Program-made: the position numbers and the translations under genes
Assembly (NCBI GenBank): GCA_019240405.1
Contig: JAFAYL010000013.1
Coordinates: forward strand, 1 to 64,000
DNA length: 64,000 nt
Direction of reading: 5' to 3'
Origin: Acidobacteriaceae bacterium
GTDB lineage: Bacteria > Acidobacteriota > Terriglobia > Bryobacterales > Bryobacteraceae
The notes under the pieces: generated by a model
What the model was told of the DNA's origin: nothing
Databases searched by the model: none
Seen by the model: only the letters and a program-made list of their open reading frames with translations
Part shown: positions 1,013 through 14,727 of the stretch, piece by piece
Position numbering within the stretch: the first letter of the stretch is position 1
Layout of the letters: every line of letters starts with the position of its first letter

Positions 1013-1587
1013 TCGATGAACTTGCCTCGGATGAGATAGCAGAGGTAGAACTCCCAGAAACGCCGGAATCGCGGGAAGCGATTCACCAGGAATTCGAAAC
1101 CTAGGGATCTCCAGAAAGCAAGTAACTTTACATGGGTTGAAATCTCACGGAAACGAGCGGGCGAGTAGTATCCAAAGCCGCCGTGGTCTTCGCCGAAATA
1201 GCGGAGCGAAAAGCTATTGAGATGCCAACGGTGAGTGGGGTCACAGAAAGAGCTGAAATCTGTGTAATGCGGCGTGACGATCACGAGCCGGCCGCCGGGC
1301 GCGAGCAGGCGGTGAAACTCTTCCATGGCGCGGATGATGTTCGTCAGGTGCTCGATGACGTGAACGGCGCGGATCTCTCGAAAAGAGTTTTCGCGGAAAG
1401 GGAACGGGAAATGGTCGAGATCGGCGAAAACGTCGGCCCGGGAGTGCGGGTTGCGATCGATACCGATGGCTCCCGGATATTTGTTGATCCCGCAGCCGAC
1501 GTCGAGGATGGGAAGTTGTTTTAGAGAGGAGGCGGTTGGAGCGGGCGCCTGGGTTTCAGCCTCTACCGTTGCTGAGCCTGCAGGCAC
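946..1587 (-). CDS. Class I SAM-dependent methyltransferase
   Basis: A 213-residue protein with a Rossmann methyltransferase core. Motif I is ILDVGCGINKYPGAIGID (about 27-44), followed by an acidic loop DLDHFPFPF and the post-motif HVIEHL, then LLAPGGRLVIVTPHY. This arrangement is typical of Methyltransf_11-type enzymes. The C-terminal third is rich in aromatic and basic residues (RFPRFRRFWEFYLCYLIR), suggesting a membrane-associated or lipid substrate, though this is only inference. The ATG at 1587 lies inside the 3' end of the aminotransferase gene (25-bp overlap), so the two are probably translationally coupled. Substrate unknown. Confidence 0.85.
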   Translation of the reverse strand: MPAGSATVEAETQAPAPTASSLKQLPILDVGCGINKYPGAIGIDRNPHSRADVFADLDHFPFPFRENSFREIRAVHVIEHLTNIIRAMEEFHRLLAPGGRLVIVTPHYTDFSSFCDPTHRWHLNSFSLRYFGEDHGGFGYYSPARFREISTHVKLLAFWRSLGFEFLVNRFPRFRRFWEFYLCYLIRGKFIEWQLEVVKSSPGSSTLASWYGN

Positions 1588-2909
1588 TGCTCCAGTGTAT
1601 CGATTGCGAAGTCGGCCTGTTCGCGCGTGATTACGAGTGGAGGGCAGAGGCGGATGCTGTTCGGGCCGGCGCCGAGGGTGAGCAACCCGCGCTCGAAGGC
1701 CATCATCTCAAGCTGATCGCGGAGGTGGGGAGCGCGCTCTTTGGTCTGCTGGTCGTAAACCATTTCGAAACCGATCATGAGGCCGAGTCCGCGGACATCG
1801 CCGACATACTTGAAGCGACGGGGCCAGCTTTTCATGCGGTCGAGCATGTAGGCGCCGAGTTCGGCTGCGTTGGCGATCAGCCCGTCTTCAAGCAGCTCGA
1901 TTGTGGTGAGCGAAGCGGCGATGGAGACCGGATTGCCGCCAAACGTGGAGGCATGGGCACCGGGGCCCCAATTCATAACATCGGCGCGCGCGACTGTAGC
2001 GCCGAGCGGCATTCCACTTGCGAGTCCCTTGGCTAGCGTGACAATGTCCGGCGTAACTCCGAAATGTTCGGAAGCAAACATCCGGCCTGTGCGGCCCATC
2101 CCGCATTGCACTTCATCGTGAATGAGAAGGATGCCGTATTTATCGGCGATGCGGCGCAGCTCCTGGTGGAATTTGGCGGGTGGAACGAGATAGCCGCCCT
2201 CGCCCTGGACGGGCTCGACCACAATGGCGGCGACCTCTTCGGCGGGAAGGATGGTTTTGAAGAGCTGGTCTTCGAGCACTTTCACGCACTCGACATCGCA
2301 AGTGGATGGATCTTTGGAGTAGGGGCAACGATAGCAGTAAGGAAACGGGATGTGGTGAACGGGCAGCATGGGATGGAAGCCGCGGCGCTGCACGACTTTG
2401 CTGCCGGTGAGTGAAAGCGCTCCCATGGTGCGGCCGTGAAATCCGCCGAGAAACGCGATGAATTTATCGCGGCCAGAGTGATAGCGGGCCATTTTGATGG
2501 CTGCTTCGATGGCTTCCGCGCCGGAGTTGCCGAAGTAAACGCGGCGATCGAGACCGCCGGGCGTGAGGGCAGCCAGCTTTTCGGCGAGGCGTACCAAGCC
2601 TTCGTAATAGAAATCTGTTCCCGACATGTGCAGGAACTCGGCGGCTTGCTTTTGAATCGCGCTAACGACGCGTGGATGAGAGTGGCCGGTTGCTACGACC
2701 GCAATGCCGGCGTTGAAATCGAGGAAGTGGTTTCCGTCGACATCCTCGACGATGGCTCCTTCTCCTCGCCTCACAACCAGCGGGTAGCACCGCGTGTAGG
2801 AAGGGGAGAGGACAGCGCGATCTCTTTCAATAATCTGCTTGGCTCTCGGACCTGGGAGAGAAGTCACCAGATTCGGGAGCAGTGAATCTACAGCAATCTG
2901 CTTCAGCAT
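1563..2909 (-). CDS. Class III PLP-dependent aminotransferase (acetylornithine/4-aminobutyrate type)
   Basis: A 448-residue fold-type I aminotransferase. Diagnostic pieces are GNSGAEAIEAA (phosphate binding), FHGRTMGALSLTGSK, the PLP-stacking HDEVQCGMGRTG and the Schiff-base lysine in DIVTLAKGLASGMPLGA. A Cys-rich insert CYRCPYSKDP...CDVECVK resembles the subgroup annotated as acetylornithine aminotransferase family in archaea and Acidobacteria rather than classical ArgD. The ATG at 2909 is chosen because GAGGG sits 6 nt upstream; a TTG at 2921 is possible. Known relatives act on ornithine, 4-aminobutyrate or serve as broad amino acid racemases, so the exact substrate is open. No arg genes flank it. 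Confidence 0.85.
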   Translation of the reverse strand: MLKQIAVDSLLPNLVTSLPGPRAKQIIERDRAVLSPSYTRCYPLVVRRGEGAIVEDVDGNHFLDFNAGIAVVATGHSHPRVVSAIQKQAAEFLHMSGTDFYYEGLVRLAEKLAALTPGGLDRRVYFGNSGAEAIEAAIKMARYHSGRDKFIAFLGGFHGRTMGALSLTGSKVVQRRGFHPMLPVHHIPFPYCYRCPYSKDPSTCDVECVKVLEDQLFKTILPAEEVAAIVVEPVQGEGGYLVPPAKFHQELRRIADKYGILLIHDEVQCGMGRTGRMFASEHFGVTPDIVTLAKGLASGMPLGATVARADVMNWGPGAHASTFGGNPVSIAASLTTIELLEDGLIANAAELGAYMLDRMKSWPRRFKYVGDVRGLGLMIGFEMVYDQQTKERAPHLRDQLEMMAFERGLLTLGAGPNSIRLCPPLVITREQADFAIDTLEQCLQAQQR

Positions 2910-3102
2910 AAGAACCCTCAATTCCTTTTTGAAAACCGCGAGAGATAGAGAGGCCGCGAGACGCTGAAGCTAGTCAGAGCCGAAGAGGGAGGGACGGGAG
3001 GTGGCCGGAACAGCCATACTTCTAGTTTAGAGGAAAGTGGGGTGGAATGGGTAGAGCCCCCAATGCCCAAACTCAGTTCATCACTCTGATTCGGTGGTTC
3101 GT

Positions 3103-6100
3103 TCACCAGGACAATTTCAGGCCGAATTGAATTTGACGGGAGGTCGTGGAAGTTGCTGTGATCACTCCGGCGGTTGGGGCGGGCGTTGTCGAGGCGGAAC
3201 TGAAGACGATGGTGTTGGGCGTGGCGAAGTTTGTGTGGTTCAGCACGTTGAAGAATTCAGCGCGGAACTGCAGCTTGACGCGCTCGGAAATCGTGGTGTC
3301 TTTGAGCAACGAGGTATCGAGTTCCGCGGAGCCGGGTCCCATCAGCACGTCTCTGCCGGCATTTCCGTAAGTTCCCGGCGCGGGCTGAATAAAGGCGTCG
3401 GGATTGAAGTACTGGTTCGGACTGCCGATGATTACGGGACCGATAAACGCCGGGTTCCAAGAGGGACGGATTGGGTTACGGGTGTCGCTGTTGTTGGTCG
3501 GATTGAATCCGAGCTGAGGGGTAAACGGAAAACCCGACTGGATGGTTGCGATGCCGCTCAGGGTCCAACCGGTTACGAGTTTTCCGCGCCAGCCGTAAAG
3601 ATTGTTGAGGAACGGCTTGCCACGGCCGAAGGGCAGCTCGTACAGGCCGTTGATCGCGGCTGAATGGCGAACGTCGGATGTGGAGGGCCCCCAATCCAGT
3701 TTCGGATTTCCTGGATACATGACGAATCCGGGAGCATTGACGCCCACACTGCTGTTCACAGCCGTTCCGTCGTCGAGACTTTTCGAAAAGGTGTAAACGC
3801 CACGGAGCTGGAGGCCACCCGAAAGATGATGAGTCACGTCGATGTTGAGCGCGTTATATGAGCTCACGCCTTCCGTGAGCCAGGTCGTCGTATTTGCTAA
3901 CGCAGGATTAGCGAGCTTCGCGCCGCTGGGGTAATACAGGGTTCCTGGGGTCAAGCTTGTGGGGCAGGGCGCCGCGGGGCAGACGGTCGGGAATGGCTCA
4001 TTGACGTCGGCAGAGAGAAGCTCGTGATAGCCGCGCGAGCCGTTATAGCCGATTCCGAGCGAAGTGCGCGGCGCAACGGCCTGCTCAATTTTGAAGCTAT
4101 ATGAAATCACGGTTGGAGTGTATGGATCGGGCTGGATCCCGCTGGGAGAAATGCGGCTGCCTGAGAGAGCTGCGATTCCGGGAGGTGTTGAAATGGCCGC
4201 GAGAGTCGCATTTTTGAACGCTTGCGTTGTGTTGAACGGCGCGTTTTGGTCGAGCCTATAGTCAAGATCGTCGAGCAGCGCGTTATAAATGCCGAAGCCA
4301 GCATGAAATACTGTCTGGCCTTTGCCGAACGGATCCCACGCGAGCGCTACGCGGGGTTGCGGCAAAAATTTTGCGCGGTTCACTGTGAGCGCGGAATCGC
4401 CGACGTGCGGATTCGTTTGGATGATTCCGTTCGAGAAGAGGTAATTGGAAGCGCGACTATGCGCTTCATTCCAGCCGTCGGTTGATTCGAAGCGGAAGCC
4501 AATTCGAAGGTTGAGGGTGTTGGTCAGCTTAATCGCGTCTTGCAAGAAGCCCGCGCCCTCGAGAGAGCGCCATCCGAGTTCGGTTGGAGATAAGACAACG
4601 CTGAAGGTCGACATCTTGCCTTGCAGAAAATTTTGCAGGCTGCCAAAGGAAGCCTGGCCGTACTGGTATTGCGCCAAGTTGTCATTGGCCTGGATACGTT
4701 CGAGCCAAACGCCTGCTTCCATCTGATGGCGTCCATGCATCCATGAAATATGATCGTCGTACGTGAATAGATTTCGAGCGGCGCGCAAGTTACTGCCTGC
4801 GTTTGTGCCGGCGCCTGTAATTTGAGAAGCGCCGTTTAGCGCCGTTCCGCCGCCGATGACAATTGCGCCGATGGGATCTCCGGGAACCCAACCGGGCACG
4901 TTCACTGAAGTCTCGCCGGTGAAAAAATAGCCAGCACGAGAGTATCCAAAACGCGCAGTGTTGAGAAGGCTTGGGGAAAAGACATGCTGCTCTTGAATGC
5001 TGGCGACCTGCTCGCGAAGCGTTTCAATGACGGTGCTTAGTGGATTCGCGGATGGCGTGTGGTCCGCGCTATCGTCGACTGTGTAGACGCCGAATAAGGT
5101 GTCACGGTCAGAGAAGGTGTGATCGAGGCGAGTTGTTCCGAAATCTTCACGAATGACTTGAAGTGGATGGCTGAACGCTTCTGCGATGCCGCTACCAAGA
5201 TCGGGGCCGTTCGGTTCGGGCCAAAGCGCAAACAGCGGCTGAACGCTTTTTGCCACACCGACGTATTTCACGTTGCCGTTTGTGCCCGGCAAGTAGCCTA
5301 GTCGCGCACTGCTGTCGGGCACAAGAGTGACATCGCTTTCGCCAAGATGCTGGCGATAACCTTCGTAATTGCCGAACAAGAATGTCTTGTCCTTTTGAAT
5401 CGGACCGCCAAGGGCTGCGCCAAAATTGTTGCGCTGAAACTGGGGAATACCGCCTTGATCGAAAAAATTGCGAGCGTCGAGATCGCTATTCCGGAGGAAT
5501 TCGTAGATGGAGCCGTGCAGTGTGTTGCCGCCTGAGGCGGTAACGATGCTCACTTGCCCACCGGGGCGCTTGCCGTATTCGGCGCCGTAGGTGTTCGAGA
5601 CCACGTTGAATTCGCGCACGGCATCGACGCCGAGCAACTGACCGCTCGCGCCGCCGGGCGTGAGATTGATCAGCGAAGCGCTGGTGTACTCGACTCCGTT
5701 GAGAAGAAACAGGTTCTCTTGCGGTCGCCGTCCCGCTATCGCGAACATGTTCCCGAGCGCGGAATTCGAGTTACCCACGGTGCCTGATCGTTCCGATGTG
5801 TAATTGACAACGCCGGGATTCAGCGTGATCAAGCCGTCGTAGCTCCGGCCATTCAGTGGGAGCTGCTTGACTTGTCGCTCGTTGACGACGCCGGAGATGT
5901 CCTGAGTAGCGAGCGACACCGTTGGTTGCGGTTCTTCGACGGTTACGATTTGCCGGATTTTACCCACGTGCAAGTTGAAATCGACAGTTATGTTCTGGCC
6001 GACCAGGAGCTCAATTCCGCTCTTGGTTTCAGGTGCGAAGCCTTGTTTTTCGACGCGGATTTCGTATTTGCCGACGACGAGCGATGGCGCGGCGTAGCGT

Positions 6101-6306
6101 CCGGCGCCGTCTGTGAGCAGGCGCCTCTCCGCTCCTGTTTCCGCGTTCTTGATGACGACGGCTGCGGCTGGAATCGGGCTGGTCGACTCGTCGGTGACCG
6201 TACCGAAGAGGGAAGCTCCGACGACTTGAGCGGGAGACGGTGTGGCTAGCCACAGGCTTCCGGCAGAAGTGCAGAACAGAAGGACAGCAAGTGAGTAACA
6301 CCTCAT
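3103..6306 (-). CDS. Oar-like TonB-dependent outer-membrane receptor with N-terminal CarboxypepD_reg domain
   Basis: A 1,067-residue outer-membrane protein. The signal peptide begins MRCYSLAVLLFC; then comes a carboxypeptidase-regulatory-like beta-sandwich (LFGTVTDESTSPIP through QGFAPETKSGIE), a plug region (VVNERQVKQLPLNGRSYDGL; GGQVSIVTASGGN) and a long barrel ending RQIQFGLKLSW with the terminal aromatic residue typical of barrel proteins. This is the large receptor class abundant in Acidobacteria; ligands are usually unknown and often glycans or peptides. The ATG at 6306 is preferred over an upstream GTG at 6348 because it starts a good signal peptide and sits about 10 nt after a promoter-like -10. 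The gene is divergent from cysD and shares its intergenic region, which holds a motif also found at the sulfite reductase locus, so sulfur-linked uptake is a possible role. Confidence 0.9.
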   Translation of the reverse strand: MRCYSLAVLLFCTSAGSLWLATPSPAQVVGASLFGTVTDESTSPIPAAAVVIKNAETGAERRLLTDGAGRYAAPSLVVGKYEIRVEKQGFAPETKSGIELLVGQNITVDFNLHVGKIRQIVTVEEPQPTVSLATQDISGVVNERQVKQLPLNGRSYDGLITLNPGVVNYTSERSGTVGNSNSALGNMFAIAGRRPQENLFLLNGVEYTSASLINLTPGGASGQLLGVDAVREFNVVSNTYGAEYGKRPGGQVSIVTASGGNTLHGSIYEFLRNSDLDARNFFDQGGIPQFQRNNFGAALGGPIQKDKTFLFGNYEGYRQHLGESDVTLVPDSSARLGYLPGTNGNVKYVGVAKSVQPLFALWPEPNGPDLGSGIAEAFSHPLQVIREDFGTTRLDHTFSDRDTLFGVYTVDDSADHTPSANPLSTVIETLREQVASIQEQHVFSPSLLNTARFGYSRAGYFFTGETSVNVPGWVPGDPIGAIVIGGGTALNGASQITGAGTNAGSNLRAARNLFTYDDHISWMHGRHQMEAGVWLERIQANDNLAQYQYGQASFGSLQNFLQGKMSTFSVVLSPTELGWRSLEGAGFLQDAIKLTNTLNLRIGFRFESTDGWNEAHSRASNYLFSNGIIQTNPHVGDSALTVNRAKFLPQPRVALAWDPFGKGQTVFHAGFGIYNALLDDLDYRLDQNAPFNTTQAFKNATLAAISTPPGIAALSGSRISPSGIQPDPYTPTVISYSFKIEQAVAPRTSLGIGYNGSRGYHELLSADVNEPFPTVCPAAPCPTSLTPGTLYYPSGAKLANPALANTTTWLTEGVSSYNALNIDVTHHLSGGLQLRGVYTFSKSLDDGTAVNSSVGVNAPGFVMYPGNPKLDWGPSTSDVRHSAAINGLYELPFGRGKPFLNNLYGWRGKLVTGWTLSGIATIQSGFPFTPQLGFNPTNNSDTRNPIRPSWNPAFIGPVIIGSPNQYFNPDAFIQPAPGTYGNAGRDVLMGPGSAELDTSLLKDTTISERVKLQFRAEFFNVLNHTNFATPNTIVFSSASTTPAPTAGVITATSTTSRQIQFGLKLSW

Positions 6307-6316
6307 TCTTAATAGA

Positions 6317-6344
6317 GTAATAGGTGAATACAGGGAGTTGTCAA
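6317..6344 (-). promoter_or_regulatory. Putative sigma-70 promoter of the TonB receptor
   Basis: On the minus strand TTGACA (6344-6339) is followed after 16 nt by TATTAC (6322-6317). The predicted transcript would start within a few bases of the ATG at 6306, so the mRNA would be nearly leaderless. The promoter lies beside the sulfur motif at 6355-6380. Prediction from consensus only. Confidence 0.5.
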
Positions 6345-6354
6345 GCACAAAATG

Positions 6355-6380
6355 CCTATAGTTCTATCGATTCAGTAGGG
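6355..6380. promoter_or_regulatory. Shared 26-bp sulfur-assimilation motif, copy 1
   Basis: CCTAT (6355-6359), CTATCGA (6364-6370) and TAGGG (6376-6380) recur with the same spacing at 12767-12792, between the sulfite reductase and precorrin-2 dehydrogenase genes; 20 of 26 positions are identical, and 7 of the next 9 also match. The ends (CCTA/TAGG) form an imperfect inverted repeat. It lies 20 bp before the cysD start, just behind the -35 of the divergent TonB gene. A TTGTCA at 6338 with a weak TTCTAT at 6362 could be the cysD promoter, placing the motif over the -10. Likely an operator for a cysteine/sulfate-responsive regulator; the regulator is not in the window. Confidence 0.6.
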
Positions 6381-6400
6381 ATTGTGGTAGGATACGGCTT

Positions 6401-7312
6401 GTGAATGCTCTAGCCCACTTGCGCCACCTGGAATCGGAAAGCATTCACATTTTGCGGGAGGTGGTTGCGGAATGCCAGCGGCCAGTCCTTTTGTATTCGA
6501 TCGGCAAAGACTCGTCTGTGCTTTTGCGCCTGGCCGAGAAGGCATTTTATCCGGGCCGGATCCCGTTTCCTCTGCTTCATATAGATACCGGGTACAAGTT
6601 CAAGGAAATGATCGAGTTTCGCGACCGGTATACGGCAAAGCTCGGCGTGAAGCTAATTGTTCAAAAGAACGAGCGAGCGCTTGAGGAAGGGGCGAATCCT
6701 TTTGCCTGGGGAACGCAGCGGTGCTGTGGCGCGCTGAAGACGACAGCTCTTTTGGATGCGTTACGGGGGGGTGGCTTTGATGCGGCAATCGGGGGAGCGC
6801 GCCGGGACGAAGAACGATCGCGCGCAAAGGAACGCGTGTTTTCATTTCGGGATGCGCGGGGTCAGTGGGATCCGCGGAACCAGCGGCCGGAGTTATGGAA
6901 CCTCTACAACACGCGCGTGCATCCGGGTGAGAGCTTGCGAGTGTTTCCGCTCTCGAATTGGACCGAAATCGACGTGTGGCGGTATATTCATGCGGAACAG
7001 ATTCCGATTGTCCCGCTGTATTTTGCGAAGCCGCGTTGGATGGTCGTGCGCGGCGACGCGCTGCTGCCGGTGGAGCATTTCTTGTCGGACGGCTCCGGAT
7101 ATCTTTCCGGCGAACGAGCAGAGCTTGTGATGTGCCGAATGCGGTCTCTCGGATGCACACCTTGCACGGGCGCCATACGATCCGATGCGGATACAGTGCC
7201 CGGCATTATTCAGGAATTAGTCGCGATGCGGAGATCAGAGCGGCAGAATCGGGTGATCGATCATGATCAGGATGGCTCGATGGAAGTGAAGAAGCAGGAA
7301 GGCTATTTCTAA
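6401..7312 (+). CDS. cysD: Sulfate adenylyltransferase subunit 2
   Basis: Catalytic small subunit of ATP sulfurylase, making adenosine 5'-phosphosulfate from sulfate and ATP with CysN. The 303-residue length is normal for CysD. The PP-loop is YSIGKDSS (32-39); other family signatures are [42 protein letters not shown] and the C-terminal [15 protein letters not shown] tail. GTG is the start, with AGGA 9 nt upstream. First gene of a cysDNH-tauE run; the stop TAA is directly followed by the cysN GTG, so the two subunits are translated together. The shared 26-bp motif sits just upstream. Confidence 0.97.
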
Positions 7313-8791
7313 GTGGCGACCGCAAGGATCCTGCCGATGGAAAACAGTTTCGAATACTTCCTGGAGCAGGAGAATGCTAAAGATCTGCTGCGATTTACGA
7401 CGGCGGGGAGCGTTGATGATGGGAAGTCGACGCTGATTGGCAGGTTGCTTTACGATTCACGCAACATATACGAGGATCAACTGGATTCCGTGGCAAAGGC
7501 TTCGGCAGGCCGGAATGCAGGAGCGATCGATTTTTCGCTCTTGACGGACGGGCTACGAGCGGAACGCGAGCAGGGGATCACGATTGACGTGGCGTATCGC
7601 TACTTCACGACTGCGCGCCGGAAATTCATCATTGCCGATACGCCCGGACATGAGCAGTACACGCGGAACATGGTGACGGGAGCATCGACTGCGGATCTGG
7701 CGATTGTGTTGGTCGATGCGAGGAAGGGGCTGCTGTCGCAATCGCGACGACATGCGTACATAGCTTCGCTGCTGGGGCTCCCGCAGATTGCTGTGGCGGT
7801 GAACAAGATGGATTTGGTGGGTTACGACCGGTCAGTGTTTGCGCAAATTGAAACCGATTTCCGGCGGTTCATTTCGCGTTTTCCGGCGATCACAACGACA
7901 TTCATTCCGATCAGCGCACTGAAAGGCGACAACGTGGTGGCTCGCACCGGAAACATGCCGTGGTATCACGGTCCGAGTTTGCTCGAGTATCTCGAGGAAG
8001 CACAAGTGGGGAATCGAGCTCGGCAAGCGCCATTCCGTTTTCCAGTGCAGCGGGTAGTGCGGCCGGACCAGCAGTTCCGTGGCTATTCGGGAACAGTCGC
8101 GTCGGGGTCGGTCGCTCCGGGGGATGCCGTGGTGCTGCTGCCTTCCGAAAGAACGACGAAGATCGGGCAGATTATTACTTTCGATGGGCACCTGAACGAA
8201 GCTTCGGCGGGACAGTCCATCACGGTAACGGTTGAGGATCAGGCCGATGTGAGCCGAGGAGATGTGATCGCGGCGCTTGACGCGCCACCTGAAATCTCGA
8301 ACTCGATTGAAGCAACGCTAGTTTGGCTAAGCGACACACCCGCAGAGGTGCGGAAGCGGTACCGACTGAAGCATACGACGCGGCAAGAATGGGCCGAACT
8401 GAAGCAAGTCAATTATCGAATTAACATCAATTCCCTGAAGCACGAGCCTGGGGAGGCGCTCGATATGAACGCGATCGGCGTTGTCGAGATCGAGACGGGC
8501 AGGCCGCTTGTGTTTGATCCGTACTCGCATAACCGGATGATGGGAAGTTTCATTCTGATTGATCCCGTGACGAATGGGACGGTTGCAGCGGGCTTGATTC
8601 AAGGTGCGGCGCGAAGGCCACGCAGCGGGGTGAATGGATTCGACCGGCCGACCTGGAGATTCGAAGGCGGCTCGCTGCTGTTGTCGGGTTTGGATGAATC
8701 GTTCGGGGACACGAAGCCGGAAGCGCTTGATGACCCGGAAGCTCTCGATGCGCTCAATCGTCTTTTAAAGCGGCTGAAAGTGAACCAGTGA
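7313..8791 (+). CDS. cysN: Sulfate adenylyltransferase subunit 1 (GTPase)
   Basis: Regulatory GTPase subunit of ATP sulfurylase. It has an EF-Tu-like G domain with GSVDDGKST (32-40), DTPGHEQY (109-116) and NKMD (164-167), followed by two beta-barrel domains. The 492-residue length shows there is no fused APS kinase (CysC), which fits the downstream APS-type reductase that does not need PAPS. The start could be GTG 7313, directly after the cysD stop with AGGAAGG ahead, or ATG 7337, which has its own AAGGA 8 nt upstream; ATG 7337 matches the usual MENSFEYFLEQE start. Confidence 0.96.
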   Translation: MATARILPMENSFEYFLEQENAKDLLRFTTAGSVDDGKSTLIGRLLYDSRNIYEDQLDSVAKASAGRNAGAIDFSLLTDGLRAEREQGITIDVAYRYFTTARRKFIIADTPGHEQYTRNMVTGASTADLAIVLVDARKGLLSQSRRHAYIASLLGLPQIAVAVNKMDLVGYDRSVFAQIETDFRRFISRFPAITTTFIPISALKGDNVVARTGNMPWYHGPSLLEYLEEAQVGNRARQAPFRFPVQRVVRPDQQFRGYSGTVASGSVAPGDAVVLLPSERTTKIGQIITFDGHLNEASAGQSITVTVEDQADVSRGDVIAALDAPPEISNSIEATLVWLSDTPAEVRKRYRLKHTTRQEWAELKQVNYRININSLKHEPGEALDMNAIGVVEIETGRPLVFDPYSHNRMMGSFILIDPVTNGTVAAGLIQGAARRPRSGVNGFDRPTWRFEGGSLLLSGLDESFGDTKPEALDDPEALDALNRLLKRLKVNQ

Positions 8792-9483
8792 ACTTGGGGA
8801 CGGCAGAGCTAGAAGAGAAAACCGCTGAAGCGCGCGAATCGATCTCTCTTGCTTTGGCCAAGAAAGGGGAGGCGTGTCTCACGTGCAGTTTTCAAGCCGA
8901 GGACATGGTGATGCTGCATCTCCTTCGAGAGTGGCTGCCGGACATACCGGTCCTCTTTCTTGAAACCGGGTATCACTTTCAGGAGACGTATCGCTACCGG
9001 GATGAGATGACGGCTCGGTACAAGCTCAACTTAGTGAATCTTTTCCCGGAACTGACCGTTCCAGAGCAGGAATCTCGATTTGGGCTGCTGTATCAAGCGG
9101 AGCCGGACGAATGTTGCAAATTGCGCAAAGTTCGTCCTTTGTTTCGCGCGCTTGAGAGATACGATGTCTGGTTCACCGGGCTTCGGCGCGTGCAGTCTCC
9201 GACGCGTGCGGGTCTAAAGGTTTTGGATCGATTTGCCTTGCCCTCAGGAAGGGAACTGCTCAAGGTAAACCCGCTTGCCGGATGGTTGGATAGAGATGTG
9301 TGGGAGTTTGCGCGGGCGCACGAGATTCCATTGTTGCCGCTCTATGCGCGAGGTTTCACGAGCATTGGCTGCGAACCGTGTACGGCGCTGCCGTCAGAGG
9401 CCGCGAACCCGCGGTCAGGGCGCTGGGCGGGGCGCAAGTTGGAATGCGGCATTCATATCGCCGGGGTGAGCGAGGTTCGGTGA
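8788..9483 (+). CDS. cysH: Adenylyl-sulfate (APS) reductase, thioredoxin-dependent, 4Fe-4S type
   Basis: Reduces APS to sulfite with thioredoxin. The 231-residue protein has the PAPS reductase fold (CSFQAEDMVMLHLL; FLETGYHFQETYRY). Cys109-Cys110 (ECC) with Cys195 and Cys198 (GCEPC) form the iron-sulfur ligand set of bacterial APS reductases, and KLECGIH (Cys220) is the catalytic C-terminal motif. The CC/CxxC pair marks it as APS rather than PAPS reductase, in line with the absence of cysC. Start GTG 8788 overlaps the cysN stop by 4 bp (GTGA), so the genes are coupled. Confidence 0.95.
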   Translation: MNLGTAELEEKTAEARESISLALAKKGEACLTCSFQAEDMVMLHLLREWLPDIPVLFLETGYHFQETYRYRDEMTARYKLNLVNLFPELTVPEQESRFGLLYQAEPDECCKLRKVRPLFRALERYDVWFTGLRRVQSPTRAGLKVLDRFALPSGRELLKVNPLAGWLDRDVWEFARAHEIPLLPLYARGFTSIGCEPCTALPSEAANPRSGRWAGRKLECGIHIAGVSEVR

Positions 9484-9484
9484 T

Positions 9485-10225
9485 ATGGAGTTGCTGCTCG
9501 GTTTCGTTGTTGCGCTAGCGATTTCGCTGACCGGCGTTGGGGCAGGGAGCATGATGACACCTTTGCTGATCTTGATGCTCGGTGTGCCACCCGCGACGGC
9601 AGTGGGCACGGCACTGGCTTTCGGCGCCATTGTGAAAGTGGCAGCGGTGCCGTTGTACGTGATTCGTGGTCACGTGAATTTGCGTGTGCTGGGCTTGCTT
9701 CTGGTGGGCGGACTACCGGGAGTGGTTGCGGGGGCGATTTTGCTCGACCGCTTAAAGCGCGGACCGTATTACGGAGTGCTGTACCTAGCGCTGGGGACGC
9801 TTATCGTTTCGACAGCGGTGTTCCATTTATATCGCGTCTTCCGGCCCAAGGAGCGGCCGTCGGGGGATAGGCGGTCTCGGCTTCTGCCGTGGTTTGCGTT
9901 TCCGATTGGAGCAGAGGTGGGATTTTCGTCGGCAGGCGCGGGGGCGTTGGGTTCGTTGTTGCTGTTGACGCTGACGCCGCTCACCGCAGTGGAAGTTATC
10001 GGAACGGATCTGTGCTTCGGATTGGGAGTCTCGCTAGTAGGCAGCCTTCTCCAGATTGGGGCAGGGAATTACGATGGGACATTGCTTTGGAAGCTCGCGA
10101 TTGGGGGGCTTTGCGGAGCCTTTACGGGTTCGCTGCTGGCGGGCCGCATCGCCCAGCGTCCGTTGCGGGTGGGATTGCTCGTGGTATTAATCGTGCTGGG
10201 CTGCCGGCTCGCGCTGCACGGGTGA
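9485..10225 (+). CDS. TauE/SafE family permease (sulfite/sulfonate or sulfate transport)
   Basis: A 246-residue integral membrane protein with about seven hydrophobic segments. The start has the TauE/SafE pattern of small residues: ALAISLTGVGAGSMMTPLLIL, then PPATAVGTALAFGAI, repeated in the second half as GAGALGSLLLLTL and AVEVIGTDLCFG. Family members move sulfite, sulfonates or sulfoacetate, and in some sulfate-assimilation clusters they are thought to import sulfate or export excess sulfite. It starts one base after the cysH stop, so it belongs to the cysDNH transcript. Direction and substrate are inference. Confidence 0.88.
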   Translation: MELLLGFVVALAISLTGVGAGSMMTPLLILMLGVPPATAVGTALAFGAIVKVAAVPLYVIRGHVNLRVLGLLLVGGLPGVVAGAILLDRLKRGPYYGVLYLALGTLIVSTAVFHLYRVFRPKERPSGDRRSRLLPWFAFPIGAEVGFSSAGAGALGSLLLLTLTPLTAVEVIGTDLCFGLGVSLVGSLLQIGAGNYDGTLLWKLAIGGLCGAFTGSLLAGRIAQRPLRVGLLVVLIVLGCRLALHG

Positions 10226-10305
10226 ATTCCCAATTCCGGACCTTTTTGGTGTATCATACCTAGTGCTATACTGACGCTTTAGCAAAAGTGCTTCCGTGAA
10301 GACAG

Positions 10306-10692
10306 GTGCGGGTATTCGAGAGCAAGCCGTTCATGCGATTCGCGAGAAAAGCGGGCATTGATGACGCAGCGCTTTGCGCGGCGGTGGGACAGATCAAGCG
10401 GGGACTCTACGCCGCGAATCTGGGCGGCGGTGTCGTAAAACACCGAATCGCCAGACGGGGTCAGGGTAAATCGGGTGGATTTCGGGTATTAATTGTTTTC
10501 GAGGCTGGTGCGAGCGCCTTCTTTGTTCATGGGTTCGCAAAAAATGAAAAAGGCGATATTCGACGTGACGAGTTACTCGCTCTAAAGAAACTTGCATCCG
10601 AATTATTGGCGTACGACGATAATGCGATCGCACGTGCCGTTAATTCTGGAGCGCTGATCGAGGTGTTCTGTGACGAAAAAACAATATCGTAA
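10306..10692 (+). CDS. RelE/HigB-like toxin of a type II toxin-antitoxin pair
   Basis: A 128-residue basic protein with the HigB-like sequence AAVGQIKRGLYAANLGGGVVKHRIARRGQGKSGGFRVLIVFEAG and FFVHGFAKNEKGDI, characteristic of the RelE/HigB superfamily annotated with DUF1044-like toxins. These toxins are ribosome-dependent mRNA endonucleases. GTG 10306 is the likely start. The downstream HTH gene overlaps by 23 bp, the toxin-first order typical of higBA. An imperfect inverted repeat with GTAT/ATAC ends lies at 10251-10271 together with a TATACT -10 at 10267, a good place for autoregulation by the antitoxin. Confidence 0.85.
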   Translation: MRVFESKPFMRFARKAGIDDAALCAAVGQIKRGLYAANLGGGVVKHRIARRGQGKSGGFRVLIVFEAGASAFFVHGFAKNEKGDIRRDELLALKKLASELLAYDDNAIARAVNSGALIEVFCDEKTIS

Positions 10693-10990
10693 TTCCGTGC
10701 TGGCTTCCGTGCACGAAACTGCTGAAGCGCTACATACTGCTGGTGTTATGGACAAGCGCACCATGCGCGAGTTCGATGGTTTGTGTCTTACGCCGGTGCG
10801 TCCTCTGAAACCAAAGGCGATCCGTGCGCTTCGGCTGCGGGAGGGCGCCAGTCAAGCCGTTTTTGCCAGATACCTAAACGTGACAACGGGTTCAGTGAGC
10901 CAATGGGAGCGGGGTGAGAAGCACCCAAACGGCGCCTCACTGAAACTACTGGCGCTAGTGGCGAAGAATGGGCTTCAGGCAGTAGCGTAA
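10670..10990 (+). CDS. HTH (XRE-type) antitoxin, HigA/NadS-like
   Basis: A 106-residue protein with a short N-terminal region, the linker FDGLCLTPVRPLKPKAIRAL and a C-terminal XRE helix-turn-helix (LREGASQAVFARYLNVTTGSVSQWERG, roughly residues 56-78). This layout is typical of antitoxins that pair with HigB-type toxins and repress their own promoter. It overlaps the toxin gene by 23 bp. The pair sits between the tauE-like gene and the convergent sulfite reductase gene, and so looks like an insertion into a sulfate assimilation locus. Confidence 0.85.
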   Translation: MTKKQYRNSVLASVHETAEALHTAGVMDKRTMREFDGLCLTPVRPLKPKAIRALRLREGASQAVFARYLNVTTGSVSQWERGEKHPNGASLKLLALVAKNGLQAVA

Positions 10991-11025
10991 GCTTTTCCGG
11001 ACGTGAAACGGCTGAAGTGTACGGC

Positions 11026-12729
11026 TTAACCTGCGACTCCGGCGGGGATGTGACCGGAGGGGTGGTCGCGCTCGACGGGCTGGAATTCGCCGCCTGCGAC
11101 CCAAGCGCGCAATTGGGCATCGGTGTGGCGGGCGAAAAATGCGCGCAGGTTTTCGGCGGGGAATTTTGCTTCAATATAGGCCCGGAGCAGACGCTCGATT
11201 GCGGCGGGCACCTCGGTTGCGACACAACGATAGCCGAGCGGTCGAGCAATGGATTGAAATGCGCCCACGCTGCCGCCGATGCAGAAGTAATATGCGTCGA
11301 CCCAGTGACCGTCGACCTTCAATTTTTTTCCTTCGATGCCGATATCCGAAATCCAGTGCTGGCCGCAACTATTGGGGCAGCCTGTGACGTGCAACTTGAG
11401 ATGCTGCTCGAATCCCGGTAAGCGCTCTTCCAACTCTTCGACGAGCCAGCGTGTGAACGTTTTCGTTTCTGTGATGCCGAGGCGGCAGAACTCCATTCCT
11501 GTGCAGGCGACTGCGCCCCGATGAAAAGCAGAGGCGCGCACGGGCAGGCCAATCAGGTCGAGTTCCTTGGCTAGCGTTTCGACGTTCCGTTCGGGCACAT
11601 TGATGACGACTAGATTCTGCATCGTCGTGGTGCGAAGCTCGCCTTCGGCAAACGCGTCGGCTAGCTGAGCTGCGGCTCGCATCTGCGTGGGGGTGATGCG
11701 GCCCCGCAGAACCGATGCTCCGACATAAAAATATCCGGGCCCCTTCTGGGCATGGATGCCGACATGATCGCGGTAAACATCAGGCGGCGGATTTTCGTGT
11801 TCGGCCGGGTCAAGTTGGAAACCGATCTGGCGCTCCAGTTCTTTCTGGAAGATCTCCTCAGTCCAGCCATGCAGTCTAAACAAATACTTCAGGCGCGCTC
11901 GCTCACGGTGTTGACGCAGAACACCGGCATCGCGGAAGATGCGCGTGACACCTGTGACGACAGCGGGCACTTGGTCCCAACGCACAAAGGCGTTCAGACG
12001 GCGCGCTAGGAATGGCTCTGCCGAAAGGCCGCCTCCAACTCGCAATGAAAAGCCAATTTCTTCGCTGCGATTGCGTTTTCGCGCGATTGCGGTCAAACCG
12101 ACATCGTTGATTTCCGGATAGCAACACCACGACTTGCATCCGGTGATGCAGATTTTGTACTTGCGGGGGAGATTATAGAAATCTGCGTTTCCGACGAGCA
12201 TGTCTGTTGAGCGCAACGCAAGGGGCGAAGCGTCACAAATCTCATCTGCATCGATGCCGGCTAGAGGACACCCTGTGATGTTGCGGGTGTCGTCGCCGCA
12301 AGCCGCCATAGTCGTCAGACCGCAACGCCAGAGCTGCTCGAAAACATCGACCAAATCGCCAGCGGCCACCCAGTGCAGTTGAATGTTGTGCCGGACCGTA
12401 ATGTCAGCCGTGCCACGCCCGTAACGGCCGGCGAGATCAGCGATCGTCCGCAGTTGGTGTGAAAACAGCAGGCCATTCGGAACCCTGATTCGAACCATAA
12501 AAAATGGAACGGAGAGTCCCTCGCCGCCTTTGCCGCCCATGACACCGGCTCCGTCACCCTGCGGATAAACACCCCACCAACGCAGGTAGGTGTTTCGCCA
12601 CTCAGGGGGAATCGCATCGTAGCCTTGACGGGCGAACTGACGGAATTCATCGAGACACTCCCAAGGATTTTTTTCAAGCTTGAGGCGCTCGGCACGTTGG
12701 GCTTTGGTTTCGTTCACAGCGGGAGACAC
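11026..12729 (-). CDS. Ferredoxin-type sulfite/nitrite reductase (siroheme and 4Fe-4S)
   Basis: Six-electron reductase of about 567 residues. Siroheme/cluster ligands are C409 and C415 (ACTGMEFC) and C451 and C455 (GCPNSC). Both ferrite-like repeats are present (FFMVRIRVPNGLLF, then GPGYFYVGASVLRGRITP). The family contains sulfite reductases and assimilatory nitrite reductases; the cys context argues for sulfite. GTG 12729 is chosen because it directly precedes SPAVNETKAQRAERLKLEK, the usual N-terminal region; the frame continues upstream without a better start. It is transcribed away from the precorrin-2 dehydrogenase gene, which helps make its siroheme, and shares the 26-bp motif with it. 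Confidence 0.93.
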   Translation of the reverse strand: MSPAVNETKAQRAERLKLEKNPWECLDEFRQFARQGYDAIPPEWRNTYLRWWGVYPQGDGAGVMGGKGGEGLSVPFFMVRIRVPNGLLFSHQLRTIADLAGRYGRGTADITVRHNIQLHWVAAGDLVDVFEQLWRCGLTTMAACGDDTRNITGCPLAGIDADEICDASPLALRSTDMLVGNADFYNLPRKYKICITGCKSWCCYPEINDVGLTAIARKRNRSEEIGFSLRVGGGLSAEPFLARRLNAFVRWDQVPAVVTGVTRIFRDAGVLRQHRERARLKYLFRLHGWTEEIFQKELERQIGFQLDPAEHENPPPDVYRDHVGIHAQKGPGYFYVGASVLRGRITPTQMRAAAQLADAFAEGELRTTTMQNLVVINVPERNVETLAKELDLIGLPVRASAFHRGAVACTGMEFCRLGITETKTFTRWLVEELEERLPGFEQHLKLHVTGCPNSCGQHWISDIGIEGKKLKVDGHWVDAYYFCIGGSVGAFQSIARPLGYRCVATEVPAAIERLLRAYIEAKFPAENLRAFFARHTDAQLRAWVAGGEFQPVERDHPSGHIPAGVAG

Positions 12730-12766
12730 AACTCTGGTAAACCTATTGACTTTAGACCAAGTATAT

Positions 12767-12792
12767 CCTATTTCTCTATCGAAACAATAGGG
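12767..12792. promoter_or_regulatory. Shared 26-bp sulfur-assimilation motif, copy 2
   Basis: Second copy of the element at 6355-6380: CCTAT (12767-12771), CTATCGA (12776-12782), TAGGG (12788-12792). Here the ends are a clean 6-bp inverted repeat, CCTATT and AATAGG, 13 nt apart. A TTGACT (12746) with TATTTC (12769) 17 nt later could be the promoter of the rightward precorrin-2 dehydrogenase gene, so the motif would cover the -10 and start site. It lies 37 bp before the sulfite reductase start on the other strand and so could govern both. Confidence 0.6.
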
Positions 12793-12811
12793 ATCATGGT
12801 AATCTTGAGTT

Positions 12812-13450
12812 GTGAGCGATGCGGTCCTTTTCCCTATGTTCTTGAAGCTCCAGGGCCGAAGCTGCCTGGTTGTAGGGGGTGGGACGACCGGCGAGCCGAA
12901 GATCGCCAGCTTGATACAGGCGGGCGGTGACGTAACGGTTATCGCGCCGGAAATAACGCAGCGGGTCAAGTCGTGGGCTGCCGAGTCGCGAATTTCCTGG
13001 AAGGCGCGTTTCTTTGCGGACGTGGACCTAGAGGGCTGTTTTTTGGTGATCGGGGCGACAAATGATGCTCAGGTTAACGAACGGGTGTTTCGTCAGGCGG
13101 AAGCACGCGGGATTTTGTGCAATGTGGTGGATGATCCTCCGCGATGCGATTTCTATTATCCGGCTGTGGTTCGGCGGGGCGCGCTGCAGATTGCGATCTC
13201 AACGGGCGGCTTCAGCCCGGCGCTTGCGCAGCGTTTGCGGCGGAAGTTAGAACGGCAATTCGGCCCGGAATACGCGGATTGGGTTGCGCAACTAGGGCGC
13301 GATCGGGATGGATTGCGAAGCAATCGCAATCTTTCTGCTGAGCGGCGCAGGCGCATGCTGCATAAGCAGGCAAGCGCATCGGAGTTTCGCAGGTTTGTCG
13401 CCAAGAGGCGGCAAGCGATGCAGAATCCGGAGGTCCCGAATGGCTGGTAA
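12812..13450 (+). CDS. Precorrin-2 dehydrogenase / sirohydrochlorin ferrochelatase (Met8p/CysG-N type)
   Basis: Makes siroheme from precorrin-2 by NAD-dependent oxidation and iron insertion. The 212-residue protein has the Rossmann start FLKLQGRSCLVVGGGTTGEPK (10-30) and the active-site motif NVVDDPPRCDF with the key Asp, followed by PAVVRRGALQIAISTGGFSPALAQRLR. The segment after GGG is normally close to xVAxRK; here it reads TTGEPK, so two conserved residues differ. Start is GTG 12812. The gene overlaps the methyltransferase gene by 11 bp and is divergent from sulfite reductase, the siroheme user. Confidence 0.92.
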   Translation: MSDAVLFPMFLKLQGRSCLVVGGGTTGEPKIASLIQAGGDVTVIAPEITQRVKSWAAESRISWKARFFADVDLEGCFLVIGATNDAQVNERVFRQAEARGILCNVVDDPPRCDFYYPAVVRRGALQIAISTGGFSPALAQRLRRKLERQFGPEYADWVAQLGRDRDGLRSNRNLSAERRRRMLHKQASASEFRRFVAKRRQAMQNPEVPNGW

Positions 13451-14231
13451 GGTGTACATTGTCGGCGCGGGGCCAGGTGATCCGGAATTATTAACGTTGA
13501 GAGCTGTCCGGCTGCTGGGGGCAGCCGACGTCGTGCTGCATGACGAATTAGTGAATCCGGAGGTGCTCGAGTTCGCGCGGGCGGATGCAATCGTTGAGAA
13601 TGTGGGGAAACGATCCGGGTGCAAGCATTATCCGCAAGCGGCAATTCACGCGAGCATGGTATTCCACGCGAGCGAGGGCAGATGTGTCGTGCGGCTGAAA
13701 GGCGGGGATCCATCGCTCTTTGGGCGCTTGGGAGAAGAACTGGCCGCGTTACGAGAGGCGCAAATCGATTTCGAAATCATTCCGGGGATTACAGCGGCGC
13801 TTGCGTGCGCGGCGGAGGCCAGAATTCCATTGACCGACCGCGCGGCTGCTCCTTCGGTCGTATTTCTTTCCGGTCATCGCTGTTCGGCGGATATGCAGCC
13901 GGACTGGGAAGCTGCTGTTGCGAGCGGGAGCACCATTGTGCTTTACATGCCGGGTCACTGCGGGGGCGCTGCCGAGCGGTTAATGGCGGCGGGCATGCGA
14001 TCTGATGTGCCTTGCGTGATCGTGGCGAATGCGAGTCTTGGGAATCAACAGGTCTTTCGGGCCACACTCGACGGGATCGTCGATCTTCGAATAAACGGCA
14101 GTCCGAAGCTCATGATCGTCGGAGAAGTGACGCGCGAGCCGGAGGTACGCGTTGAGGAAGAGATGTGGCTCGCGCCGATTACTTCAGCGCACCTTCAACA
14201 GCGCCGACCAGCGCTGGATCCTCGGGTGTGA
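13440..14231 (+). CDS. cobA: Uroporphyrinogen-III C-methyltransferase
   Basis: Converts uroporphyrinogen III to precorrin-2 with two SAM. The 263-residue protein has the classical GKVYIVGAGPGDPELLTLRA start, VLHDELV, VVRLKGGDPSLFGR and EIIPGITAALACAAEARIPLTDR motifs. ATG 13440 is preceded by GGAGG 8 nt upstream and overlaps the end of the dehydrogenase gene by 11 bp. With the preceding gene it supplies siroheme for the sulfite reductase encoded on the other strand. Its last 53 bp overlap the end of the convergent glutathione peroxidase gene. Confidence 0.95.
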   Translation: MAGKVYIVGAGPGDPELLTLRAVRLLGAADVVLHDELVNPEVLEFARADAIVENVGKRSGCKHYPQAAIHASMVFHASEGRCVVRLKGGDPSLFGRLGEELAALREAQIDFEIIPGITAALACAAEARIPLTDRAAAPSVVFLSGHRCSADMQPDWEAAVASGSTIVLYMPGHCGGAAERLMAAGMRSDVPCVIVANASLGNQQVFRATLDGIVDLRINGSPKLMIVGEVTREPEVRVEEEMWLAPITSAHLQQRRPALDPRV

Positions 14232-14727
14232 CATCCGGCTCGAATCTGGCGAGTATTTTGCCGTCACGCGAAATCAGAAATTTGGTGAAGTTCCACTTGA
14301 TCTCGCCGCCTGTGGAAGGGTTGGCAGTCTTGTCGGTCAGGTACTCGTAAAGCGGCGCAATATCGTTTCCGGCGACGGAGACTTTCGCCATCATCGGGAA
14401 TGTCACGTCGTATTTGCGCTTGCAAAATACTTTGATTTCCGAGTTTGTTCCCGGCTCCTGCTGACCGAAATTGTTGGCCGGAATGCCAACGATGACGAAG
14501 CCTTGGTCTTTATACTTCCGGTATAACGCCTCGAGTCCGGCGTACTGTGGCGTGTAGCCGCACCGACTGGCTACATTCACGAGCATCACGACTTTGCCCT
14601 TAAGTTGCGACAGCGGCACGGGTTCCATGTCGATGGACATGAGTTTGTAATCGTAAATGGAGGAAGCCGGTGATAGGCGCGCAGAACCGGCAAGAACGGC
14701 AGCGAGAACAAGTACAGACTTGAGCAT
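14179..14727 (-). CDS. Secreted glutathione peroxidase family protein
   Basis: Thiol peroxidase of 182 residues with an N-terminal signal peptide (MLKSVLVLAAVLAGSARLSPAS). The catalytic triad is visible: Cys56 in NVASRCGYT, Gln in NNFGQQEPG (near 89) and Trp145 in IKWNFTKF. Cys rather than selenocysteine is used. Bacterial homologues reduce hydroperoxides with thioredoxin-like donors; the signal peptide implies periplasmic action. Its 3' end overlaps the convergent methyltransferase gene by 53 bp. Confidence 0.93.
   Translation of the reverse strand: MLKSVLVLAAVLAGSARLSPASSIYDYKLMSIDMEPVPLSQLKGKVVMLVNVASRCGYTPQYAGLEALYRKYKDQGFVIVGIPANNFGQQEPGTNSEIKVFCKRKYDVTFPMMAKVSVAGNDIAPLYEYLTDKTANPSTGGEIKWNFTKFLISRDGKILARFEPDVTPEDPALVGAVEGALK

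Follow-up and report, generated by a model that had tools for sequence, protein, structure and literature searches.

Why should a 26-bp sequence be repeated in the two divergent intergenic regions from which a soil bacterium reads its sulfate-assimilation genes? The question arises in the first 64,000 nucleotides of contig JAFAYL010000013.1 (assembly GCA_019240405.1, Acidobacteriaceae bacterium; Bryobacterales, Bryobacteraceae), a stretch referred to here as the window, where an original prediction had described copies of the repeat at 6355-6380 (CCTATAGTTCTATCGATTCAGTAGGG, copy 1) and 12767-12792 (CCTATTTCTCTATCGAAACAATAGGG, copy 2) and proposed a shared regulator. The repeat is a true regulatory signal that was partly misread: the real unit is a 28-bp degenerate palindrome, CACCnnAATnTCnATnGAnATTnnGGTG, of 17 bits, which recurs upstream of cysD and of sulfite/nitrite reductase genes in relatives. 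We read the set of palindromes, with a probability of about 0.7, as the operators of a sulfur/cysteine regulon of this bacterial family, likely under a CymR-like Rrf2 repressor encoded on another contig (C24) of the same genome.

A palindrome upstream of sulfur genes

Building the motif from orthologous loci, a check proposed with the original prediction, recovered the palindrome across the cysD upstreams of the family. The sample comprised 66 upstream regions, 50 of cysD (30 + 20 loci, with 20 of 40 further listed places left out) and 16 of sulfite/nitrite reductase genes of two types. An expectation-maximisation search for a 20-bp motif scored 235 in the 35 family-level cysD upstreams, against a maximum of 73 in shuffled sets, and 347 in all 66 upstreams, against 85, with six shuffled sets in each case. 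After refinement, 53 of the 66 upstreams contained a site of at least 9 bits and 13 did not. The register of the motif was fixed using all sequences and each upstream was then left out of the matrix in turn; under this test 35 of 50 cysD upstreams and 9 of 16 reductase upstreams reached at least 12 bits; of 1819 background blocks, each 150 bp long, 20 scored as high. The same genome has a second cysD–cysN-like pair (L081, G000:C25:44000-54000, at 1346-4230; 65% and 48% identical to that of the window), and no operator was found upstream of this second cysD (1.5 bits). The sites, promoters and genes of the window are as follows.

3103..6306, − strand: TonB-dependent-receptor-like outer membrane protein (Pfam CarboxypepD_reg and OMP_b-brl_4; probable start at 6306)
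6299..6326, no strand: CACCTCATTCTTAATAGAGTAATAGGTG, strongest putative operator of the window; the probable ATG of the receptor gene (6306-6304) falls within it
6355..6380, + strand: copy 1, putative degenerate cysD operator covering the −35 region (20/26 match to copy 2)
6385..6393, + strand: extended −10 TGGTAGGAT, 7 nt upstream of the GTG of cysD, whose promoter seems leaderless
6401..7312, + strand: cysD (NCBIfam, above cut-off)
7313..8791, + strand: cysN (NCBIfam, above cut-off)
8788..9483, + strand: cysH (NCBIfam, above cut-off)
9485..10225, + strand: TauE/SafE family exporter (Pfam)
11026..12717, − strand: sulfite/nitrite reductase-family protein (Pfam NIR_SIR; a sulfite reductase by context only)
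12760..12765, − strand: possible −10, TATACT, of the reductase gene
12765..12792, no strand: putative operator containing copy 2, between the divergent reductase and siroheme genes
12797..12805, + strand: extended −10 TGGTAATCT, 6 nt upstream of the GTG of the siroheme synthase gene
12812..13450, + strand: siroheme synthase, N-terminal type (CysG-N; NCBIfam, above cut-off)
13437..14231, + strand: uroporphyrinogen-III C-methyltransferase (NCBIfam, above cut-off)

When sites from this genome are excluded from the matrix, the two best positions in the window fall in the two cys intergenic regions, at 6299-6326 (19.4 bits) and 12765-12792 (14.5 bits); model R1, also built without them, ranks the same two sites second and first, respectively. 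The maxima of 20 shuffled windows ranged from 10.8 to 19.0 bits, with a mean of 14.6. Score alone thus singles out 6299-6326, and the case for copy 2 rests on its location as well as its score. The first of these, the strongest site of the window, had been overlooked, and copy 1 is a weak site and not the equal partner of copy 2. The 16-bp core of copy 1 starts 42 bases upstream of the cysD start codon, and 13 of the 14 other cysD upstreams in the comparison have a best site that starts 41-47 bases ahead of the codon; we read copy 1 as a probable degenerate cysD operator, at the operator position of the relatives. A shared sulfur regulon could thus span, as had been proposed, the TonB-type receptor, cysDNH–tauE, the reductase-family gene and the siroheme genes. 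The reductase-family protein reached no NCBIfam equivalog cut-off, its best match being ferredoxin-nitrite reductase (376.8 of 594 bits).

Beyond the window, 17 genomes of the genus, including this one, were searched with the symmetric model R2, which returned 39 distinct places at E ≤ 10, five of them training promoters. The list is incomplete, as 150 of 230-854 first-look candidates were scored in each of the 17 genomes and the window's own sites were missed; in this genome R1 returned three places and R2 one distinct place, with the window sites in neither, the pre-filter having weakened the search. Eighteen of the 34 non-training places precede genes for TonB-type receptors (7), sulfur enzymes (4), PIG-L deacetylases (3) and ANTAR-domain proteins (4), and 4 of the 34 face other genes or none. 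Six of the seven receptors were compared with that of the window: five, from five genomes of the genus, are 68-71% identical to it, with sites that overlap the gene starts or lie within ~60 bp of them, and one is 40% identical; the seventh was assigned by Pfam. The sulfur enzymes are two rhodaneses, a CysH and a cysteine dioxygenase–rhodanese fusion, whose gene starts ~150-215 bp from the site with a second site in between. The three PIG-L deacetylases are closest to the bacillithiol enzyme BshB1, below its cut-off (97-105 against 182.5 bits). One of the three is encoded on contig C14 of this genome, with two sites upstream of its gene (17.2 and 16.4 bits); a rhodanese gene on C28 of this genome has one site of 13.5 bits, found with R1. 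The four ANTAR-domain genes (L294, L296, L303 and L312; G006 twice, G001 and G011) have strong sites ~100-140 bp upstream, and their products, possible RNA-binding antiterminators, could possibly form a second regulatory layer.

An Rrf2 protein encoded next to cysK

The original prediction placed the regulator outside the window, and this held: no candidate was seen in the cys part, and one is encoded on C24. Two Rrf2 proteins of this genome exceed the Pfam cut-off. That on C1 is SUF/IscR-like and its gene lies beside an iscS-like gene (the neighbour judged by eye). The C24 protein contains no cysteine, and its gene is followed after 4 bases by cysK, whose product scores 450.6 bits against the cysteine synthase A cut-off of 350.95 (TIGR01139). 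It belongs to the Rrf2 superfamily (TIGR00738, 95.5 bits, cut-off 73.3; PF02082, 94.8 bits, cut-off 30) and falls well short of IscR (TIGR02010, 66 against 207.55 bits). Orthologs at E ≤ 1e-15 occur in 111 of 120 genomes of the family (this one included), in 19 of 20 further genomes from the order and in 14 of 60 elsewhere in the class. Among 30 inspected orthologs, 25 have no cysteine and five have one, all 30 genes are followed by an open reading frame (ORF) with a cysteine-synthase N-terminus, and every protein ends in isoleucine (NWEI in 20, NWDI in nine and DWNI in one), the tail in this genome being ...YVPNWEI. Operators of at least 12 bits were found in 9 of the 30 rrf2–cysK upstreams, against ~1% of background blocks. 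A related but distinct element, roughly CTnTAATCTCTAGTTnGATAnAGGAG, was seen ~45 bp before several rrf2 genes (L283, L284 and L288-L290) and may represent a version of the operator that serves autoregulation.

The C24 protein is the likeliest regulator, one that would bind the palindrome and that, on this evidence, would work like CymR but does not pass the CymR membership test. When cysteine is ample, CysK would grip the C-terminal ...YVPNWEI tail of the repressor, and the complex would block transcription of the genes of sulfate activation and sulfite reduction, those of siroheme synthesis and that of the TonB-type receptor. Under a shortage of sulfur, O-acetylserine would build up, CysK would release the repressor and the genes would be derepressed; the receptor may import organosulfur compounds.

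Several observations weigh against this reading. The C24 protein scores 82.3 bits on the CymR equivalog NF047409, against a cut-off of 195, although this is still its best equivalog match, and its own upstream region carries no site (−0.4 bits). In one genome (G068) a strong site precedes cysD (20.4 bits) but there is no Rrf2 match, perhaps owing to an incomplete draft. In the operator register copy 1 scores only 3.4 bits, 15 of the 50 cysD upstreams stay below 12 bits, and about 12 of the 34 new places in the genus fall within predicted ORFs and look fortuitous. The R1 E-values of the window sites are modest (0.19 and 0.24), R2 ranks a coding palindrome at 14625-14642 above them, and the motif search was restarted less often on the shuffled sets than on the real data. 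The coding palindrome, CATGTCGATGGACATG, is near-perfect, lies inside an ORF at 14179-14727 and is probably due to chance.

The alternative that survives best, which we nevertheless consider unlikely, keeps the palindrome and changes its binder, either to a LysR-type (CysB-like) protein acting on the inner CTAT-N7-ATAG box or to the SUF/IscR-like Rrf2 protein on C1. The inner part of the palindrome does have T-N11-A symmetry, which is typical of LysR-like sites, a second Rrf2 protein is indeed present, and G068 has the site without a match to the CysK-linked Rrf2. The symmetry spans 28 bp, however, which suits Rrf2 dimers, and the upstream of the SUF-like rrf2 gene lacks a site (4.2 bits), whereas 9 of 30 rrf2–cysK upstreams have one. 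The published site of the Rrf2 protein NsrR is 23 bp long (PMC9338935). The preference for a LysR-like site at CTAT-N7-ATAG was given up when the symmetry proved to span 28 bp, no search for LysR genes being made. Of the two regulator types originally suggested, the Rrf2/CymR-like one has gained positive evidence.

Promoters and the two copies of the repeat

A less favoured explanation, and a very improbable one, is that the copies are alike through shared promoter sequence only (an extended −10, a leaderless start, a recent duplication of the promoter), with no regulator involved. There is some substance to this. Seven of the nine positions that follow the 26-bp match are the same in both copies and had been counted with the repeat; they are in fact the extended −10, and so the similarity between the copies is in part promoter and not regulator. 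Of 15 cysD upstreams that were compared (13 from the genus including this one, two from the nearest other genus), 14 share the extended −10 TGNTANNNT, with a distance to the start of 6-7 nt in 10 and of 9-12 nt in four; TANNNT ~12 bp before the start codon is a published sign of leaderless bacterial genes (PMC3160421). Motif runs on small genus sets likewise gave promoter elements first, the extended −10 for cysD and the start region ATACTCTAGTATC for the reductase. The palindrome, however, lies upstream of the −10 and recurs before unrelated sulfur genes and receptors at varying distances from their starts. The operator is predicted to overlap promoters between −35 and +1, and several of these promoters seem to be leaderless; at the reductase gene, TATACT would pair at 16-bp spacing with a −35, TTGTTT, within the operator. 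In nine genomes of the genus (L233-L235, L237, L238, L240-L242 and L244) the main NIR_SIR-family protein found differs from that of the window, and ATACTCTAGTATC recurs at the start codon of several of these genes.

That two short AT-rich intergenic regions match by chance, as the poor score of copy 1 as an operator might suggest, is scarcely credible given the shuffles, the leave-one-out test and the conservation in relatives: sliding a 26-bp frame over both 94-bp intergenic stretches gave a best identity of 21, whereas 1500 pairs of dinucleotide shuffles gave a mean best of 15.3 and a maximum of 20, with one pair reaching 20/26 and none 21/26. The original description of the copies was otherwise accurate, with 20 of 26 positions identical without a gap, an inverted repeat with 6-bp arms in copy 2 (CCTATT/AATAGG) and divergent genes flanking each copy.

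Its claim that the motif occurs only at the two sulfate-assimilation start regions is right for close copies. The next best match to copy 1 in the window is 17/26, and no third copy within three mismatches of the 20 shared letters was found in the draft genome (4,447,216 bases, 63 contigs). For the underlying degenerate site the claim fails, because sites exist at 6299-6326 and before the C28 rhodanese and C14 PIG-L genes. Across 200 genomes, this one included, a search for the motif gave 15 places outside this genome, all with three mismatches, against 13 for a reversed-pattern control; within this set, then, no genome but this one has the exact string. Loss of the motif in relatives had been named as grounds for doubt; the exact string is indeed lost but the degenerate operator persists, so a test on the exact string would have misled. 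A looser consensus, CTATCGAnnnAnTAGnnATnnTG, was tried and set aside, with 79 places in this genome against 56 for its control; none of 28 further loci inspected by eye was a recognisable sulfur-gene promoter. Between the two cys operons, just 3' of tauE, 10306-10990 holds a RelE-family toxin-like gene and a helix-turn-helix gene, likely a toxin–antitoxin pair.

Candidate leader peptides in other Terriglobia, and known systems

The same genes may be controlled differently elsewhere in the class. In genomes of the class that fall outside the order, 11 of 13 reductase orthologs are preceded by a short ORF with at least four cysteine codons, and up to nine, and several of these ORFs are followed by a terminator-like hairpin (loci L009-L014 and L018-L022); such an ORF is present in 100 of 1020 random 420-bp blocks drawn from these loci with the leaders left in. 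No cysteine-rich leader was seen before the reductase gene at the four family loci checked, and none of the 13 genomes outside the order matches the Rrf2 protein at E ≤ 1e-15. For cysD, 18 named loci of 80 fetched were examined. Three from Acidobacteriota metagenome-assembled genomes (L101-L103) have operators of 14.6-23.2 bits, only L102 being independent of the training genomes. Nine others (L104-L109, L111, L112 and L115), Granulicella sp. dw_53 and Edaphobacter lichenicola among them, have leaders with at least five cysteines and no site over 7.4 bits. The leader ahead of cysD in Granulicella sp. dw_53, MISFTQTACRTCCNACCMACCCCVQTWV, is an example. Several of the cysD and reductase leaders have terminator-like hairpins 3' of them and are candidate cysteine attenuators in Terriglobia; Rfam gave no match in the 15 loci scanned, which included 13 reductase loci. 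One of the two modes of control, operator or leader, may have replaced the other in these lineages.

If the regulon is as proposed, the bacterium could turn down sulfur acquisition when cysteine is sufficient, and common, little-studied soil bacteria gain a testable sulfur regulator, operator and candidate regulon. Outer-membrane receptors with no assigned cargo would be tied to sulfur supply, a clue to their substrates, and related lineages would offer two alternative solutions for the same genes, a protein–operator switch and a leader-peptide attenuator. The broader proposition stands at even odds in our estimation: that outside the Firmicutes an Rrf2 protein reads cysteine through CysK, by docking ...NW[E/D]I in its active site, and controls sulfate assimilation, TonB-type receptors (presumably for organosulfur uptake) and thiol-related genes, with other Terriglobia using cysteine-codon attenuation. 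Titles and the openings of abstracts yielded no report on Rrf2 or sulfur-assimilation regulons of Acidobacteria or on sulfate assimilation in Bryobacterales, which is weak evidence of absence as subscription literature was thinly covered.

The closest known system is CymR–CysK of Bacillus, Staphylococcus and Clostridium. In Clostridium acetobutylicum the CymR candidate CAC2236 is reported directly before cysK (CAC2235), with cysDN as a predicted target (PMC3828012). CysE enters CysK by way of a C-terminal isoleucine that acts as its anchor, and motifs of this kind have been reported in further CysK partners, CymR among them (PMC12895370, PMC4961446). Common to both systems are an Rrf2 protein without Fe–S cysteines, a gene directly before cysK, the C-terminal isoleucine tail (PMC12895370 for CymR) and targets, here predicted ones, among sulfur and cysteine genes. 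The present system differs in its score of 82 bits against a cut-off of 195, in the TonB-type receptors of its candidate regulon, in its apparently leaderless promoters and in its phylum. With IscR/SUF-type regulators it shares the Rrf2 superfamily and a similar length of palindrome, but the protein is without cysteine, scores 66 against 207.55 bits and is paired with cysK and not iscS. Attenuation by cysteine-codon leader peptides, for which candidates stand before the same genes in other Terriglobia, is based on RNA and the ribosome, whereas the element described here would be a DNA operator.

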